The translations under genes and the position numbers were made by a program. A stretch of DNA of 46,146 nt, from NCBI GenBank assembly GCA_024280455.1, contig JAJRQC010000051.1:1-46146 (forward strand), in the 5' to 3' direction. The notes beneath the pieces were generated by a model that saw nothing but the letters and a program-made list of their open reading frames with translations, was not told the DNA's origin and did not search any database. The stretch is from Deltaproteobacteria bacterium (GTDB lineage: Bacteria; Desulfobacterota; Desulfobulbia; Desulfobulbales; Desulfobulbaceae). Every line of letters starts with the position of its first letter. The stretch's first letter is position 1. Shown piece by piece: positions 31,402 to 36,160 of the stretch.

Positions 31402-31433
31402 AAAAAGAGACGGGGGCGACCCCGTCTCTTTTT
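31402..31433. terminator. Bidirectional terminator, copy 1
   Basis: A 14-bp stem, AAAAAGAGACGGGG (31402-31415) with CCCCGTCTCTTTTT (31420-31433), and a GCGA loop. It serves ychJ on the plus strand and the small membrane-protein gene on the minus strand. The same stem with its downstream flank recurs at 35435-35463. Confidence 0.92.
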
Positions 31434-31462: not shown

Positions 31463-31678
31463 TTACATGCCGCCTACCGCGCTGAACCATGCCTTGGCAA
31501 GGGCAAACGGACCGCCTGCAGCAACCATTCCGCCAACCAGACTGGCCAGTGACCACAATCCGATGATTGCACCGGCGGTATTGATGGAGATCATTGCGCC
31601 TCTGGAAACTTCTGCCCGGGTATCAACGGAAGTTTTTGTGTTTGTCCTGGTCTTTGCGATGGTGTTGGTAGCGGTCAT
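31463..31678 (-). CDS. Small one-helix membrane protein, copy 1
   Basis: 71 residues, family not recognised. Residues 1-28 are hydrophilic and Thr/Lys/Arg-rich (MTATNTIAKTRTNTKT). Residues about 29-58 are one Gly/Ala-rich hydrophobic helix (INTAGAIIGLWSLASLVGG), and the tail is GGPFALAKAWFSAVGGM. The start is ATG 31678, directly after AGGAGAAACGCC on the minus strand; a longer frame to 31741 runs through the promoter and is rejected. It is nearly identical to two genes 4 kb away. Transcription is predicted from a sigma-54 promoter at 31730-31745 under control of paired upstream sites. Strong conservation between copies, a good ribosome-binding site and a terminator all argue for a real gene. 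Confidence 0.85.
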   Translation of the reverse strand: MTATNTIAKTRTNTKTSVDTRAEVSRGAMISINTAGAIIGLWSLASLVGGMVAAGGPFALAKAWFSAVGGM

Positions 31679-31729
31679 GGCGTTTCTCCTGATATCTTTT
31701 GTGTTTTTGTTCTGCTTTGTCCTTTCTAT

Positions 31730-31745
31730 AGCGAGGACCATGCCA
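31730..31745 (-). promoter_or_regulatory. Sigma-54 (-24/-12) promoter of small-protein copy 1
   Basis: On the minus strand the sequence is TGGCATGGTCCTCGCT. It matches the consensus TGGCACG-N4-TTGCW at all but two positions, with the invariant GG and GC exactly 10 bases apart. Predicted transcription starts near 31720, about 40 bases before ATG 31678. The matching site before copy 3 is closer still to consensus. Sigma-54 promoters always need an enhancer-binding activator. Confidence 0.82.
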
Positions 31746-31799
31746 GTTTGAAAAATGTAATAATATCAAAGGTAATATGTTATGGAGAAGGAAAAACCA

Positions 31800-31833
31800 T
31801 GTCAAAATGACACACTATTCTGTCAGAATGGCA
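31800..31833. promoter_or_regulatory. Paired palindromic upstream activator sites, copy 1
   Basis: Two 13-bp dyads, TGTCAAAATGACA (31800-31812) and TGTCAGAATGGCA (31821-31833), with 8 bases between and centres 21 bp apart (two helical turns). They fit TGYCA-N3-TGRCA. They lie about 95 bases upstream of the predicted sigma-54 start, the usual place for enhancer-binding-protein sites. Between them and the promoter is a conserved AT-rich word, TAATAATATCAA (31758-31769), a partial match to an IHF site. Confidence 0.75.
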
Positions 31834-31952
31834 TGAAAAAATAACTTTTTTTTTGAACGTGGGGATAAAAATGAGGTTCTCCGGCGTTAGATAGGTATAA
31901 GACTAAAATCTACTGATCAGTCAACAGACAAAGTTTTACCAAGGAGAATGTC

Positions 31953-32675
31953 ATGGGTTTGAAAGTACAGCGAATCAAACGAAGCCTGTTTTTATGCCTT
32001 GCAATTATGGTGAGTGTTACGGCATTGGTTGTTTTTCCCTACGGGATAAAGTTTGGAAAAGTGTCCCTGCAGCAGGGCATTTGTTATGCAGATGATGGAA
32101 ACGATGGTGGTGGCCACGGCGATAGTGACAGCGGCGATAGTGACAGCGGCGATAGTGACGGCGGCGATAGTGACAGCGGCGATAGTGACGGCGGCGATAG
32201 TGACGGCGGCGATAGTGACGGCGGCGACAGTGACGGCGGTGACAGTGGCGGCGGCGACAGTGACGGCGGTGACAGTGGCGGCGGCGACAGTGACGGCGGC
32301 GACAGTGACGGCGGTGACAGTGGCGGCGGCGACAGTGACGGCGGTGACAGTGATGGTGGCGACGGTGGTGACGCCGATGACGCCGATGACGCTGATGACG
32401 CTGATGACGCAGAAGGGAGCGACACGGATGGTGATAACCATGATAGTTTAAGTGGCGAGAACCATAACTCTGCAGATGCTGCTGATACGGTGAATGGTGA
32501 TATGGGCGGAATGAATGGAATGGGCGATCAGGGACAGGCCGGGAGTTCTGCCGGTGGTGGCGGTACTGCTGCTGACAACGGGGATTTTGATGTGACCGGA
32601 GTCGGTTCTCTGAATGATCTGTCTCCGGTTTCTGATGTGGATGAAGCCGATCTGGTAGGAAACTGGGATGATTGA
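31953..32675 (+). CDS. Secreted acidic Asp/Gly/Ser repeat protein
   Basis: 240 residues. A signal peptide (basic RIKR, hydrophobic core about 11-30) probably ends near CYA-DDG (residue 46). Residues 56-135 are sixteen five-residue repeats of the type GDSDG, GDSDS or GDSGG, followed by a DAD/DDA run (about 139-155) and a low-complexity acidic, Gly/Met/Asn-rich tail. The mature protein is very acidic and probably disordered; it could bind calcium or other cations outside the cell, as Ser-Asp repeats do in other bacteria, but no function can be assigned. The start follows AAGGAG. The gene is divergent from small-protein copy 1 and upstream of the ECF sigma gene. Confidence 0.8.
   Translation: MGLKVQRIKRSLFLCLAIMVSVTALVVFPYGIKFGKVSLQQGICYADDGNDGGGHGDSDSGDSDSGDSDGGDSDSGDSDGGDSDGGDSDGGDSDGGDSGGGDSDGGDSGGGDSDGGDSDGGDSGGGDSDGGDSDGGDGGDADDADDADDADDAEGSDTDGDNHDSLSGENHNSADAADTVNGDMGGMNGMGDQGQAGSSAGGGGTAADNGDFDVTGVGSLNDLSPVSDVDEADLVGNWDD
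32118..32357 (+). repeat. Coding tandem repeat, 15-base unit, 16 copies
   Basis: Sixteen in-frame 15-base units such as GGCGATAGTGACGGC. The first eight use GATAGTGAC and later ones GACAGTGAC, with Gly/Asp alternation forming 30- and 45-base higher-order units. This suggests growth by slippage or unequal exchange. The repeat leaves other frames open on both strands, which makes false genes. Confidence 0.92.
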
Positions 32676-32731
32676 ACGAATGCGTGTTTTTGTAACTCTA
32701 AGAAAAAGCTGAGTTGACAGTTGTCAGTTTC

Positions 32732-32935
32732 TTTATCTGAAAATCGCCCACGAAGTGATGTCGATCCGAGCTATTTTCATCGGTCGTTGTGGCTGAGACC
32801 TGTAAAATCTTGGTCCAGCCATGCTGGTTTATCTGAAAATCGTCCATGAAGATGGAACTTTTAGGCTATTTTCATGGTTGGTTGTGGCTGTGACGTTAAA
32901 AATCTGGTCCAGCCATGGCGGTTTATCCGAAATCG
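32732..32935 (+). repeat. Tandem direct repeat of about 95 bases before the ECF sigma gene
   Basis: Unit 1 spans 32732-32827 and unit 2 spans 32828-32921; both start TTTATCTGAAAATCG and end GGTCCAGCCATG plus 4 bases. A third partial unit begins at 32922 (TTTATCCGAAATCG). Within a unit TGAAAAT can pair with ATTTTCA. The repeat runs into the apparent 5' end of the sigma-factor gene. Confidence 0.8.
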
Positions 32936-33429
32936 ATTCGTTTCGGGAGCAGATTGTTCATCTGCTCCCGCGTCTTTTGAGCTTTGCCAAGGGACTTTCC
33001 GGAGACAGGTCTACAGCGGAAGATCTGGTCCAGGGGGCCTGCGAAAGGGCACTGACCCGGCTCGGGCATGTCCAGGATGTTTCGGGGCTGGACAGCTGGC
33101 TCTTCAGGATTGTGTACACCGGATGGATAGATACTCTCAGGAGAAGGAAAAGACGTGCGGACGGTGTACAGTTTGATGAAGAAATCGCCCTGACCCTCGT
33201 ACCAGTGCGGAGTGGTATTGAAGAAAGCTCGACACTGGATGTCCAGAAAGCTGTCGATCAGCTCAGTCCGGATTTTCGTGCTGCCATTCTGTTGATCAGT
33301 GTGGCAGGGTATAATTATGATGAAGCTGCAGAAATTATGGAAGTTCCTGTTGGCACGGTAGCAAGCCGTGTGGCCAGGGCCAGGGCACAGCTTGCTCAAT
33401 TGCTGTCCCCGGATGGGACTGATACCTGA
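32821..33429 (+). CDS. ECF-type RNA polymerase sigma factor
   Basis: The core from SFREQIVHLLPRLLSFAKGL onward is an ECF sigma-70 factor. Region 2 has TAEDLVQGACERAL and LDSWLFRIVYTGWIDTLRRRKRR. Region 4 has QKAVDQLSPDFRAAILLISV, then the helix-turn-helix YNYDEAAEIMEVPVGTVASRVARAR. The start is doubtful: ATG 32821 puts about 33 residues inside a tandem DNA repeat, and GTG 32884 or 32890 would give a length nearer to usual ECF proteins; none has a good ribosome-binding site. A membrane anti-sigma-like gene follows 120 bases later. Likely targets are the neighbouring secreted-protein genes, and perhaps itself. Confidence 0.87.
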   Translation: MLVYLKIVHEDGTFRLFSWLVVAVTLKIWSSHGGLSEIDSFREQIVHLLPRLLSFAKGLSGDRSTAEDLVQGACERALTRLGHVQDVSGLDSWLFRIVYTGWIDTLRRRKRRADGVQFDEEIALTLVPVRSGIEESSTLDVQKAVDQLSPDFRAAILLISVAGYNYDEAAEIMEVPVGTVASRVARARAQLAQLLSPDGTDT

Positions 33430-33548
33430 TTATGGCAACAGAAAATCCTTGGAGAACAAACAGTCGGCTGTCTGGTGGATTCACGGTCAGTTCCACCGCA
33501 GGTGCACTCAGGCAATACGGTATTTAATTTTGCCGGGAGAATGAAAAA

Positions 33549-34196
33549 ATGAACAGGAAATTTGATACAGTCATCTTGTCCTCCTATCTTGACGGAGAAC
33601 TGGACGTCCTGCTGACGGGCCAGGTCGCTGATTTTATCGCCGTTAATGAAGATGCCCGGAAGTTTATCCTGGATGCGATTCGGACCAAGGCCCTGGTACG
33701 GGCCTCGGCCGGGAACGGGTCGAATAGAGATACAAAAAGCCTGGAGCGCATTATGGCATCATCTGGTTTGGCCCGGAAGGGGTCGGGGTCGGTGAGACGA
33801 AAACCAATGCAGATTCTGACCAGGATTGCAGCCGGAATCATGGTCGCTCTATTGGGGTTTGGTGCCGGTTCAATGGTTGACAGGGGAAATCCCGTGGTGG
33901 CGGAAACAGTGATACCGCAGCTCCCGTCAACTTACAGACAGGTTGTTGTCAACACCTTGGAAAATGAAGTAAGCGGGGTGACGAGGCAGTGGACAGATCA
34001 GAAGGATCATTTGATTGTGAAAGTGACGCCGATCAGGACATACCGGGACCCGCAGGATCATTATTACCGTAAATACAAGCTGGTTGTGATCAGCGACAGC
34101 GGCCGGAGCCAGATTATCGGTCTGGCGCGGCGGGATGGGAAAAAGAGTTGGGAAACCAAGAGCCTGACCTTTGTTGACGGGCCGGATAAGATTTAG
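33549..34196 (+). CDS. Anti-sigma-factor-like membrane protein
   Basis: 215 residues. The N-terminal 60 residues (ILSSYLDGELD, then helical) resemble the sigma-binding domain of ECF anti-sigma factors but without the zinc-binding His/Cys pattern. A membrane helix lies at about 88-109 (ILTRIAAGIMVALLGFGAG), followed by a periplasmic domain of about 100 residues that would sense the signal. Its place directly after the ECF gene supports the role; similarity at sequence level is only moderate, so the function is partly inference from context. Confidence 0.7.
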   Translation: MNRKFDTVILSSYLDGELDVLLTGQVADFIAVNEDARKFILDAIRTKALVRASAGNGSNRDTKSLERIMASSGLARKGSGSVRRKPMQILTRIAAGIMVALLGFGAGSMVDRGNPVVAETVIPQLPSTYRQVVVNTLENEVSGVTRQWTDQKDHLIVKVTPIRTYRDPQDHYYRKYKLVVISDSGRSQIIGLARRDGKKSWETKSLTFVDGPDKI

Positions 34197-34259
34197 CGGC
34201 AAGTCGAACGTTGCAAACCATCAATACTGAGAACAGAACGGATCAAAAAAGAGGTGTAC

Positions 34260-35321
34260 ATGTTGAACATTTTAAGGCGGTTATTTTTCTTTCAGTTGAG
34301 CGGCGGTCTTCTCTGTGTTTTGCTTGGCGGTTTTCCTGTTTTTGCTGCTGAGGTATCAGGCAACTCATCCGACCCGGATGTAGAAAAAAAACAGGCTGAC
34401 ACAACAGGTTTTTCATCCTTTTTCAAAGAGCTTTTTTCCGGAAAAGACTATGTCACCTCCGGAACCAATATTCTGGGTCTGGAGCCTGCTCAGGCCCAGC
34501 GATACAGGCCAGGTACAACCTTTATTTATTCCAACGGGTCGTGGGAACAGGTGATTGCTGCAGACGCAGAGGCTGTGACCTGGAAAAACCACAGGGGATA
34601 TGTTTCATCCGGACGGCCTGATATTATTTATCGGAGAACAGAATGGCAGACCCGGACCGCCAGGGGGGCAAGGGAATTTGTGCCGGCCAGGTTTTTGTTT
34701 GATGAAAGCGCCCCCTCCCTCTGGCCTCTCAAGGTCGGGAACGAGATACGTTTCTATGAAAAAGGGAGCTGGCAGCCTAAGGATAAGCTGGAAAGAACCT
34801 ATTCAACCTACTGGACATGCAGGGTGGAGGGTACGGAAAAGGTAACGGTTCCTGCCGGAGAATTTGATACATGGAAAATTACCTGTTCCAGATACGTCAG
34901 TCCTGAAAAAGCTCATCTCGGAAAAGTGCGGGAAAGGAAGACCTACTATTACGCCCCTGAACTGAAACACTGGGTCGTCGAGGCCAAGGACTATCGGTAT
35001 AGAAAACCTGCACGGCGCAGGGAGCTTGTCGCTGTTCTTCCCGGGCTGAAGGATATTGTACCTGTTGCAGCAGATCGTTCTGCTCTGAACCGTTCGTTTC
35101 ATAAGGCGCTGGAGTCGAATACGAGTGGCAAGCCTCTTGTCTGGCAGAGCAAAAAAGCAGGGGTGACCTCTACAGTAATCCCTCGCAAAACGTTCAAGCT
35201 GAAGAATGGAACCTATTGTCGTCGGTATGAACAGAAAATCCAGACCCCTTCGTGGCAGGATGTCTATTACGGAGTAGCCTGTCGGGATGGCCAAGGGATC
35301 TGGGCGACCCCGAGAAGGTAG
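34260..35321 (+). CDS. Secreted protein with RT0821/17-kDa surface-antigen-like C-terminus
   Basis: 353 residues. It has a signal peptide (MLNILRR, hydrophobic core, cleavage near VFA-AE at about 28). The middle (about 80-265) resembles DUF3108-type domains, with WTCRVEGTEKVTVPAGEFDTW. The last 70 residues match the surface-antigen C-terminal pattern of the RT0821/Lpp0805 family: KALESNTSGKPLVWQSKKAG, GTYCRRYEQKI, then YYGVACRDGQGIW with two conserved cysteines. ATG 34260 is chosen for its GAGG spacing; GTG 34254 is two codons earlier. It is the last gene of the plus-strand cassette with the sigma and anti-sigma genes and stops at a bidirectional terminator. Confidence 0.75.
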   Translation: MLNILRRLFFFQLSGGLLCVLLGGFPVFAAEVSGNSSDPDVEKKQADTTGFSSFFKELFSGKDYVTSGTNILGLEPAQAQRYRPGTTFIYSNGSWEQVIAADAEAVTWKNHRGYVSSGRPDIIYRRTEWQTRTARGAREFVPARFLFDESAPSLWPLKVGNEIRFYEKGSWQPKDKLERTYSTYWTCRVEGTEKVTVPAGEFDTWKITCSRYVSPEKAHLGKVRERKTYYYAPELKHWVVEAKDYRYRKPARRRELVAVLPGLKDIVPVAADRSALNRSFHKALESNTSGKPLVWQSKKAGVTSTVIPRKTFKLKNGTYCRRYEQKIQTPSWQDVYYGVACRDGQGIWATPRR

Positions 35322-35434
35322 TTGTTTTCTCTTGAAAGAGCGATTTTTTTGATGAGTGGTGGGCGGACTCCGGTTTGCAGATAGGGAGAATCCGGGAAAA
35401 AAAACGTTCCTTTACCAGGAAAGGGTATAAAAAC

Positions 35435-35463
35435 AAGAGACGGGGGCGACCCCGTCTCTTTTT
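35435..35463. terminator. Bidirectional terminator, copy 2
   Basis: Stem AAGAGACGGGG (35435-35445) with CCCCGTCTCTT (35450-35460), GCGA loop, T-run to 35463. It has the same stem and downstream flank as 31402-31433. It ends the plus-strand surface-protein gene and the minus-strand small-protein pair. Confidence 0.9.
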
Positions 35464-35492
35464 CGTTGACCGTTTTTCTTATCTATATCGTT

Positions 35493-35711
35493 TTACATGC
35501 CGCCTACCGCGCTGAACCATGCCTTGGCAAGAGCAACCGGACCGCCTGCAGCAACCATTCCGCCAACCAGGCTGGCAAGTGACCACAGACCGATAATTGC
35601 ACCGGCGGTATTGATGGAGATCATTGCGCCTCTGGAAACCTCAGTGCGGGTATCAACGGCAGTTTTTGTGTTGGTTCTGGTCTTTGCGATGGTGTTGGTG
35701 GTAGCGGTCAT
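35493..35711 (-). CDS. Small one-helix membrane protein, copy 2
   Basis: 72 residues, four substitutions from copy 3 and close to copy 1. It keeps the Thr/Lys/Arg-rich head, the single Gly/Ala-rich helix, and the GGPVALAKAWFSAVGGM tail. ATG 35711 follows GAGGAGAAACGCC. It lies 58 bases downstream of copy 3 on the minus strand with no sigma-54 box of its own, so it is probably the second gene of a two-gene operon. Function unknown. Confidence 0.85.
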   Translation of the reverse strand: MTATTNTIAKTRTNTKTAVDTRTEVSRGAMISINTAGAIIGLWSLASLVGGMVAAGGPVALAKAWFSAVGGM

Positions 35712-35769
35712 GGCGTTTCTCCTCATATTTTTTTGAGACAGTCTATTCGTATTTTTTAACAATCGTTTA

Positions 35770-35988
35770 TTACATTCCGGTTATTGCACTGAACCATGCC
35801 TTGGCAAGGGCAAACGGACCGCCGGCAGCAACCATTCCGCCAACCAGGCTGGCAAGTGACCACAGACCGATAACTGCTCCGGCGGTATTGATGGAGATCA
35901 TTGCGCCTCTGGAAACCTCAGTGCGGGTATCAACGGCAGTTTTTGTGTTGGTTCTGGTCTTTGCGATGGTGTTGGTGGTAGCGGTCAT
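35770..35988 (-). CDS. Small one-helix membrane protein, copy 3
   Basis: 72 residues, same head-helix-tail design (tail ending AWFSAITGM). ATG 35988 follows AGGAGAAACGCC. It is the first gene after the sigma-54 promoter at 36047-36062 and is followed by copy 2. High identity among the copies at both protein and leader level points to recent duplication or gene conversion. Function unknown; a membrane stress or signalling role is only a guess based on sigma-54 control and form. Confidence 0.85.
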   Translation of the reverse strand: MTATTNTIAKTRTNTKTAVDTRTEVSRGAMISINTAGAVIGLWSLASLVGGMVAAGGPFALAKAWFSAITGM

Positions 35989-36046: not shown

Positions 36047-36062
36047 AGCGAGGACCGTGCCA
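36047..36062 (-). promoter_or_regulatory. Sigma-54 (-24/-12) promoter of small-protein copies 3 and 2
   Basis: On the minus strand the sequence is TGGCACGGTCCTCGCT, which differs from the consensus TGGCACG-N4-TTGCW at a single position; GG and GC are 10 bases apart. Predicted transcription starts near 36036, about 48 bases before ATG 35988. The site and the following 13-base gap plus AT-rich word TAATAATATCAA (36075-36086) match the arrangement upstream of copy 1 exactly in spacing. Confidence 0.88.
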
Positions 36063-36126: not shown

Positions 36127-36160
36127 TGCCAAAATGACACACTGTTCTGCCAGGATGGCA
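36127..36160. promoter_or_regulatory. Paired palindromic upstream activator sites, copy 3
   Basis: TGCCAAAATGACA (36127-36139) and TGCCAGGATGGCA (36148-36160), 8 bases between, centres 21 bp apart, fitting TGYCA-N3-TGRCA. The pair stands 65 bases from the sigma-54 box, against 55 bases in the copy 1 unit. The 10-bp difference keeps the sites on the same DNA face. Confidence 0.78.

Follow-up and report, generated by a model that had tools for sequence, protein, structure and literature searches.

The window, a stretch of 46,146 nucleotides (contig JAJRQC010000051.1 of assembly GCA_024280455.1) from a deltaproteobacterium of the family Desulfobulbaceae, carries three genes for small one-helix membrane proteins, whose family is associated in the order Desulfobulbales with sigma-54-type promoters and with a dedicated clade of FtsH. 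The genome comparisons described below lend good support to the regulation and to the association of the genes, and we lean towards the reading that the small proteins and their dedicated FtsH maintain quinol:cytochrome-type complexes under envelope or redox stress, as parts of a two-component sigma-54 regulon of the Desulfobulbales. As to molecular action, we infer that the small proteins would be clients or adaptors of FtsH or subunits of a complex.

A first-pass annotation of the window had described three near-identical 72-residue proteins with a common leader, and this holds throughout except for the length of copy 1, which has 71 residues where copies 2 and 3 have 72. The coding DNA is 92.2% (copies 1 and 2), 89.0% (1 and 3) and 95.0% (2 and 3) identical, and exactly AGGAGAAACGCC stands 5' of the ATG in all three. 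Copies 3 and 2 share a two-gene unit spanning 35493-35988, and copy 1 stands in a unit of its own. Both units had been thought to end at the same terminator stem, and GC-rich hairpins with a common stem core were indeed found, equally stable structures arising in 0 of 200 shuffles. The proposed check of silent against replacement changes gave mostly silent codon differences (silent/replacement 10/3 for copies 1 and 2, 13/5 for 1 and 3, and 6/4 for 2 and 3), with dN/dS by the Nei-Gojobori method (NG86) of 0.019/0.229, 0.039/0.336 and 0.032/0.114, that is 0.08, 0.12 and 0.28, respectively, and of 0.03-0.09 for the window copies compared with a relative on contig C439 of genome G003. Since silent differences predominate and dN/dS is low, the genes look translated and constrained, under purifying selection. 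All three are real, and the further matches in the own genome and the relatives in most sampled genomes of the order (both given below) speak against chance reading frames. With a dS of 0.11, copies 2 and 3 are the closest pair and probably go back to a tandem duplication of recent date. Sigma-54 control had also been predicted, and at sequence level sigma-54-type promoters are present at both window units; beyond that annotation, the analysis added an adjacent sigma-54 activator, the dedicated FtsH clade and a common double-palindrome site.

The setting of the family was compared over 60 loci, one per genome and at the best listed place, from genomes with a match in a survey of the order; the own genome of the window, genomes already sampled, some others and matches near contig ends were left out. 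Promoters were scored with a simple -24/-12 matrix over the 350 bp upstream of the first gene of each cluster, with a cut of 9.5 out of 11.5. A sigma-54 site reaching this cut precedes 55 of the 63 clusters in these loci versus 2 of 159 control open reading frames, at a median of 68 bp from the ATG, so that the -24/-12 element stands at a regular upstream distance as in sigma-54-dependent genes. Eight clusters fall below the cut, namely L100 (8.9), L128 (9.3) and L101, L111, L113, L117, L121 and L131 (7.5-8.3).

In one group of loci, palindromes of the type TGYCA-N3-TGRCA lie 21 bp apart upstream of the promoter. In 1.60 Mb from 178 loci, mostly chosen for their small genes and including duplicates, 38 instances of the complete pair were counted (about 27 distinct contexts). 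Every one of them lies where a small gene starts, and none arose in 20 block shuffles. Both window units carry the pair, and elsewhere in their own genome it is present twice on contig C89 and also on C74. Some loci of this group adjoin both an NtrC-type activator of 446-449 aa and a kinase of about 525-552 aa, as in G003 with the gene order kinase, activator, small, small, FtsH, NapC, NapC, and in the own genome a kinase and activator pair is located at the end of contig C2, its activator being 96% identical to that of G003. On the grounds of the common double palindrome and this near-identical activator the window copies were assigned to it, and we infer that the C2 kinase and NtrC-type activator would control them; one activator query gave 32 matches in the own genome. 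The double palindrome resembles GTCA-N3-TGAC, which we take to be the NorR-type consensus, and NorR was tried as the identity of the activator and rejected (NF003451, 318.4 and 297.2 bits versus a cut-off of 476). Inverted repeats of the form GCAA-N5-TTGC were noted upstream of promoters in L089, L091, L095, L099, L106, L107, L114, L120, L128 and L129 and are perhaps the site of another activator group (group B).

Neighbouring genes in the 60 loci were compared with those of 20 control regions, which were drawn from 16 of these genomes and are unmatched for gene content; some of the query proteins stem from the locus set itself. FtsH was found in 42 of the loci and none of the controls, the sigma-54 activator in 45 versus 2, a NapC/NrfH-like cytochrome in 33 versus 0, a sensor in 32 versus 0 and NrfD in 17 versus 0, and minor associates were an HmcB-like protein (2 versus 0) and a two-helix relative of the family (3 versus 0). 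One common gene order is activator, one to six small genes, FtsH, sensor, and NapC or NrfD; in 34 of the 63 clusters the small genes are directly followed by FtsH in the same orientation, and in 33 they are directly preceded by the activator. NapC or NrfD is present in 45 of the 60 loci, and FtsH, one of these two and the activator are found together in 29. Most sensor rows (27 of 32) are 297-389 aa long, and a membrane sensor of about 305 aa resembling the front part of a histidine kinase was noted at L064:8659-9579, L082:7435-8355 and in similar rows. In our reading these sensor-like proteins appear to keep the HAMP/dimerisation region without the ATPase domain; the one sensor scanned had no Pfam match, L069 encodes a full kinase according to Pfam, and the activators of L064 and L060 contain a receiver domain (Pfam).

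The identity of the neighbouring FtsH is evident from TIGR01241 (746.6 bits in L069 and 742.9 in L088; cut-off 600), and that of L069 comprises the Pfam domains AAA, Peptidase_M41 and FtsH_ext. In a quick tree of 65 rows, rooted at the midpoint, with locus rows above 540 aa and with the Shimodaira-Hasegawa-like approximate likelihood ratio test (SH-aLRT) as its only support, the 39 of the 42 locus FtsH proteins that exceed this length form one clade together with 8 other rows (SH-aLRT 100), and the 18 other FtsH rows fall outside it. Among the 8 non-locus rows, 2 are identical to locus rows and 6 lie, by their coordinates, within 5 kb of small genes; the remaining clade rows are one in an Hmc-like cluster on contig C22 of the own genome and one in G394, about 13 kb from the nearest known small gene. 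Genomes G014, G032, G039 and G372, which are without the small-protein family, each have one FtsH at the cut used, and it falls outside the clade. A further copy resembling the FtsH clade, with one internal TAA, was noted in the own genome (G000:C105:64210-66047). According to excerpts of PMC11287208, the majority of bacteria carry just one FtsH gene.

Presence of the clade was scored with a profile of the FtsH N-terminal part at a cut of 83 bits chosen post hoc, the nearest rows scoring 83.3 and 79.9. In the 73 genomes of the taxonomic family of the window, small genes and clade FtsH occur together in 31, small genes only in 8 (G001, with a weak match, G019, G027, G028, G353, G354, G355 and G377), clade FtsH only in 3 (G021, G356 and G359) and neither in 31 (Fisher p 7e-10, uncorrected for kinship). 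The NapC query matched 17 of the 73 genomes, 15 of them among the 39 with small genes. As the FtsH clade accompanies small genes in 31 of 39 genomes and NapC in 15 of 39, FtsH is the more constant companion, and it is the partner in electron transfer that changes.

Regulators appear to be exchanged in part of the family. Six f5 loci are without a sigma-54 site, and in these the small gene, FtsH and NapC remain together; a MerR gene, HspR-like, was found in five of the six (L101, L111, L117, L121 and L131). HspR-like MerR relatives were also noted in L048 (f5) and L050, a seventh f5 locus, L119, retains the sigma-54 site, and L097 combines a match to the MerR query with activators and a sigma-54 site. 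The MerR protein was rejected as HspR proper and is called HspR-like only, as NF047375 gave 77.2 bits (L048) and 74.0 bits (L050) versus a cut-off of 105. For the HspR operator we assumed CTTGAGT-N7-ACTCAAG as the consensus of the HspR-associated inverted repeat (HAIR). L101 is the only f5 locus with a match before its cluster, at 3 mismatches, and since 37 HAIR-like matches with 3 mismatches are scattered over the loci generally, the operator was counted as absent. By eye, a sigma-70-like promoter was noted before the f5 small genes and a GAGTGATGATCACTC palindrome in L101 and L117.

The small proteins had been said to belong to no recognised family and to occur in multiple copies, and a profile search in Desulfobacterota had been recommended; the first two points proved sound, and relatives were indeed found in Desulfobacterota. 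Those scanned gave no significant match in Pfam, NCBIfam, PHROGs, PADLOC or the PDB, the best sub-threshold match among 25 members being DUF2105 (E 0.0015, in 2 of 25). The own genome contains 14 family matches on six contigs, 11 beyond the three of the window, including one two-helix relative and one short frame of 52 codons. Relatives were found by profile search in 39 of the 73 genomes of the taxonomic family, among the matches listed, with at least 18 matches in the richest genome, in 128 of 193 sampled genomes of the order, and in 13 of 297 genomes of the phylum sample, the own genome counted. A scan of genome contigs with a tight pattern gave 12 loci, 11 from Deltaproteobacteria or Desulfo- organisms, among them Desulfogranum mediterraneum DSM 13871, and one named only "Bacterium"; a first, pattern-based alignment of relatives was too diverse. 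Distant relatives beside housekeeping genes (recA-like and LPS (lipopolysaccharide)-export-like by eye) were noted in L053, L054, L055, L056 and L074, and the four of them scored, L053-L056, have no sigma-54 site. Within the same genus, G001, G002, G004, G005 and G007 showed no clear member (one weak match in G001) and no dedicated FtsH; G002, G004 and G007 had no FtsH match at all in the search with the FtsH profile, which fragmentary assemblies may explain in part.

Among 177 non-identical family proteins the median length is 72 aa. The single transmembrane helix that had been annotated is also predicted here, and it is preceded by a tail of median 27 aa (5th-95th percentile 21-37) rich in Thr (17%), Lys (11%), Ala (10%), Ser (8%) and Arg (6%). 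The median number of Lys and Arg residues is 5 in this tail and 1 after the helix, suggesting an N-in topology by the positive-inside rule. Positions G41, W43, G56, G57, P58, A68 and G71 are each kept in at least 80% of the proteins. For copy 3, AlphaFold2 predicted with low confidence (mean predicted local distance difference test, pLDDT, 65; predicted template modelling score, pTM, 0.30) an unstructured segment 1-20 and helices 21-55 and 58-70. In the open-access literature searched, no account of the family or operon was found, subscription papers and preprints lying outside the search, and FtsH is not mentioned in the excerpted main texts of PMC4641369, PMC12316311 and PMC8170396. The protein family is new, and its setting, a sigma-54 envelope response and small proteins tied to FtsH, is already known in kind.

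In the mechanism that we propose, the histidine kinase would sense membrane or redox trouble and the phosphorylated activator would bind the double palindromes. A burst of small proteins would then enter the inner membrane with the Lys/Arg tail on the cytoplasmic side and the Gly/Trp-rich end facing outwards. Their glycine-rich helix might bind membrane complexes, the dedicated FtsH or both, so as to shield the complexes or present them for repair, and the tail, predicted to be unstructured, could be the handle for later removal by FtsH. FtsH substrates typically need an unstructured cytosolic stretch of 10-20 aa, as stated in excerpts of PMC13039401; the family tails are longer than this, and tail length is the only feature that fits a client or adaptor of FtsH. 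If correct, the proposal would provide a readable case of membrane proteolysis specialised for the respiratory chain, and a role for many unannotated short genes and for one or more of the many activators.

Several observations weigh against it. A shared neighbourhood reflects common regulation and history, not contact; no module gene is present among the neighbours examined of the window units, and four of the 60 loci (L080, L086, L092 and L118) are without any module gene. The separate kinase of 550 aa, characteristic of the group to which the window belongs, is not clearly enriched (10 of 60 loci versus 1 of 20 controls). Eight of the 39 genomes with small genes are without the FtsH clade, although 3 of the 8 are under 90% complete, three genomes show the reverse, and the cut behind these counts was set after the list had been seen. 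According to the same excerpts of PMC13039401, FtsH is able to degrade tail-less membrane proteins.

A two-helix relative of the family also points away from this proposal, towards small proteins that are structural parts of quinone-interacting complexes like those of NapC, NrfD or Hmc, with FtsH serving only as quality control of the operon, an alternative that we regard as possible though doubtful. Besides the frequency of NapC or NrfD in the loci, it draws on this 98-aa protein (L012:4621-4917, minus strand, contig C29 of the own genome, near Hyf-hydrogenase-like genes by eye), whose first half is family-like and whose second half is weakly similar to HmcD, the small membrane subunit beside HmcB and HmcC in the Hmc sulfate-respiration complex. 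Such relatives lie near HmcB/HmcC-like genes in L043, L044, L052 and L058, partly by eye, and in L123 and L127. The two-helix relatives reach 20.6 (L012) and 23.1 bits (L052) with the HmcD model NF045712 (cut-off 34), the one-helix proteins scanned have no match to it, and the HmcB and HmcC relatives nearby are themselves below their NCBIfam cut-offs. Against the alternative, at least 18 matches in one genome, together with stand-alone units, suit a fixed stoichiometry poorly, and the electron-transfer partner changes between NapC, NrfD and Hmc-like proteins, the FtsH clade being the commoner companion.

Stress response and membrane-complex membership, both raised in the first-pass annotation, remain the likely field, and a direct role of the stress-response kind would be that of abundant phage-shock-protein (Psp)-like protectants which stabilise or seal the membrane with no FtsH contact. 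Sigma-54-type promoters, many copies, the glycine-rich helix and stand-alone units would all suit this; it is nevertheless unlikely, as it leaves the tracking of small genes by one FtsH clade unexplained, two activators scanned fall under the PspF cut-off and two carry a receiver domain by Pfam. Nothing in the analysis favours the pore that had been suggested as a further role, and pore, holin, toxin or bacteriocin-like peptides are very improbable: the proteins are short, hydrophobic, glycine-rich and multi-copy, but they recur in a chromosomal neighbourhood with FtsH and regulators, are under purifying selection, have GG within the first 30 residues in just 8 of 177 cases, and matched no PADLOC model in the two scanned. 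A mobile or phage origin was rejected, a pattern scan of viral contigs and one tblastn query each against plasmids and phages having found no relative, and these searches likewise count against such peptides. That tandem and dispersed near-copies reflect selfish or incidental amplification without function can hardly be believed, given dN/dS far under 1, promoter and activator site retained with the copies over several families, and internal stops in only a few rows among the matches listed.

Table 1. Positions of the small genes and their predicted control elements in the window.
Feature	Position	Strand	Remarks
Small one-helix protein, copy 1	31463..31678	-	71 aa; profile match E 3.9e-28
Small one-helix protein, copy 2	35493..35711	-	72 aa; second in the two-gene unit
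Small one-helix protein, copy 3	35770..35988	-	72 aa; first in the two-gene unit
Putative -24/-12 sigma-54-type promoter, copy 1	31730..31745	-	TGGCATGGTCCTCGCT; score 9.9/11.5; ends 51 bp before ATG
Putative -24/-12 sigma-54-type promoter, copy 3 - copy 2 unit	36047..36062	-	TGGCACGGTCCTCGCT; score 10.7/11.5; ends 58 bp before ATG
Candidate activator site (double palindrome), copy 1 unit	31800..31833	-	TGYCA-N3-TGRCA, N8, TGYCA-N3-TGRCA
Candidate activator site (double palindrome), copy 3 - copy 2 unit	36127..36160	-	TGYCA-N3-TGRCA pair
Predicted intrinsic terminator hairpin 3' of copy 1	31403..31433	-	-26.2 kcal/mol, z -5.8
Predicted intrinsic terminator hairpin 3' of copy 2	35435..35460	-	-20.7 kcal/mol, z -4.1

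Between the two units, the window region 31953-35321 (plus strand) encodes four proteins: one that is acidic, probably exported and marked by Gly/Asp/Ser repeats of 15 nt, an extracytoplasmic function (ECF) sigma factor (Pfam), by position an anti-sigma-like protein, and a further, exported-looking protein for which sub-threshold 17kDa-antigen and DUF3108 matches were noted.

Among the closest known systems are the high-light-inducible proteins (Hlips) of cyanobacteria, which, according to excerpts of PMC11287208, are one-helix proteins induced through Hik33/RpaB; they guard photosystem II while it is being repaired, and FtsH4 afterwards removes them. Small single-helix proteins, two-component control and a specialised FtsH would be features of both. 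Tentatively, the module might be an anaerobic respiratory counterpart of Hlip-FtsH4, a comparison that we consider unlikely to hold in full: a two-component/sigma-54 switch would flood the membrane with interchangeable one-helix guards that hold NapC, NrfD or Hmc complexes while these are damaged and repaired, and a co-evolved FtsH would degrade damaged subunits and, after stress and by way of their long N-terminal tails, the guards. Unlike Hlips, the family has sigma-54-type promoters and a respiratory setting, and the likeness is one of analogy only. The motif ExxN/HxR, which we take to be the chlorophyll-binding motif of Hlips, occurs in 0 of 177 family proteins, and there was no Pfam match to Hlip or chlorophyll a/b-binding proteins. 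Pseudomonas aeruginosa clone C is likewise reported to have, beside its core FtsH, a second one with a specialised role (PMC10850787), which is an acquired xenolog in another phylum. As in Psp (PspF) and Zra (ZraSR), a sigma-54 activator would drive membrane or envelope proteins. Unlike in those systems, the activators score below the cut-offs for PspF (TIGR02974, 265.4 and 271.2 bits versus 443.55) and ZraR, those scanned with Pfam have a receiver domain, and the effectors are unrelated small proteins, FtsH and cytochromes. Lambda CIII, SpoVM and MgtR are short membrane-associated modulators of FtsH and single proteins; by these descriptions both they and the present proteins are tied to FtsH, and here it is a multi-copy family that tracks its own FtsH clade.

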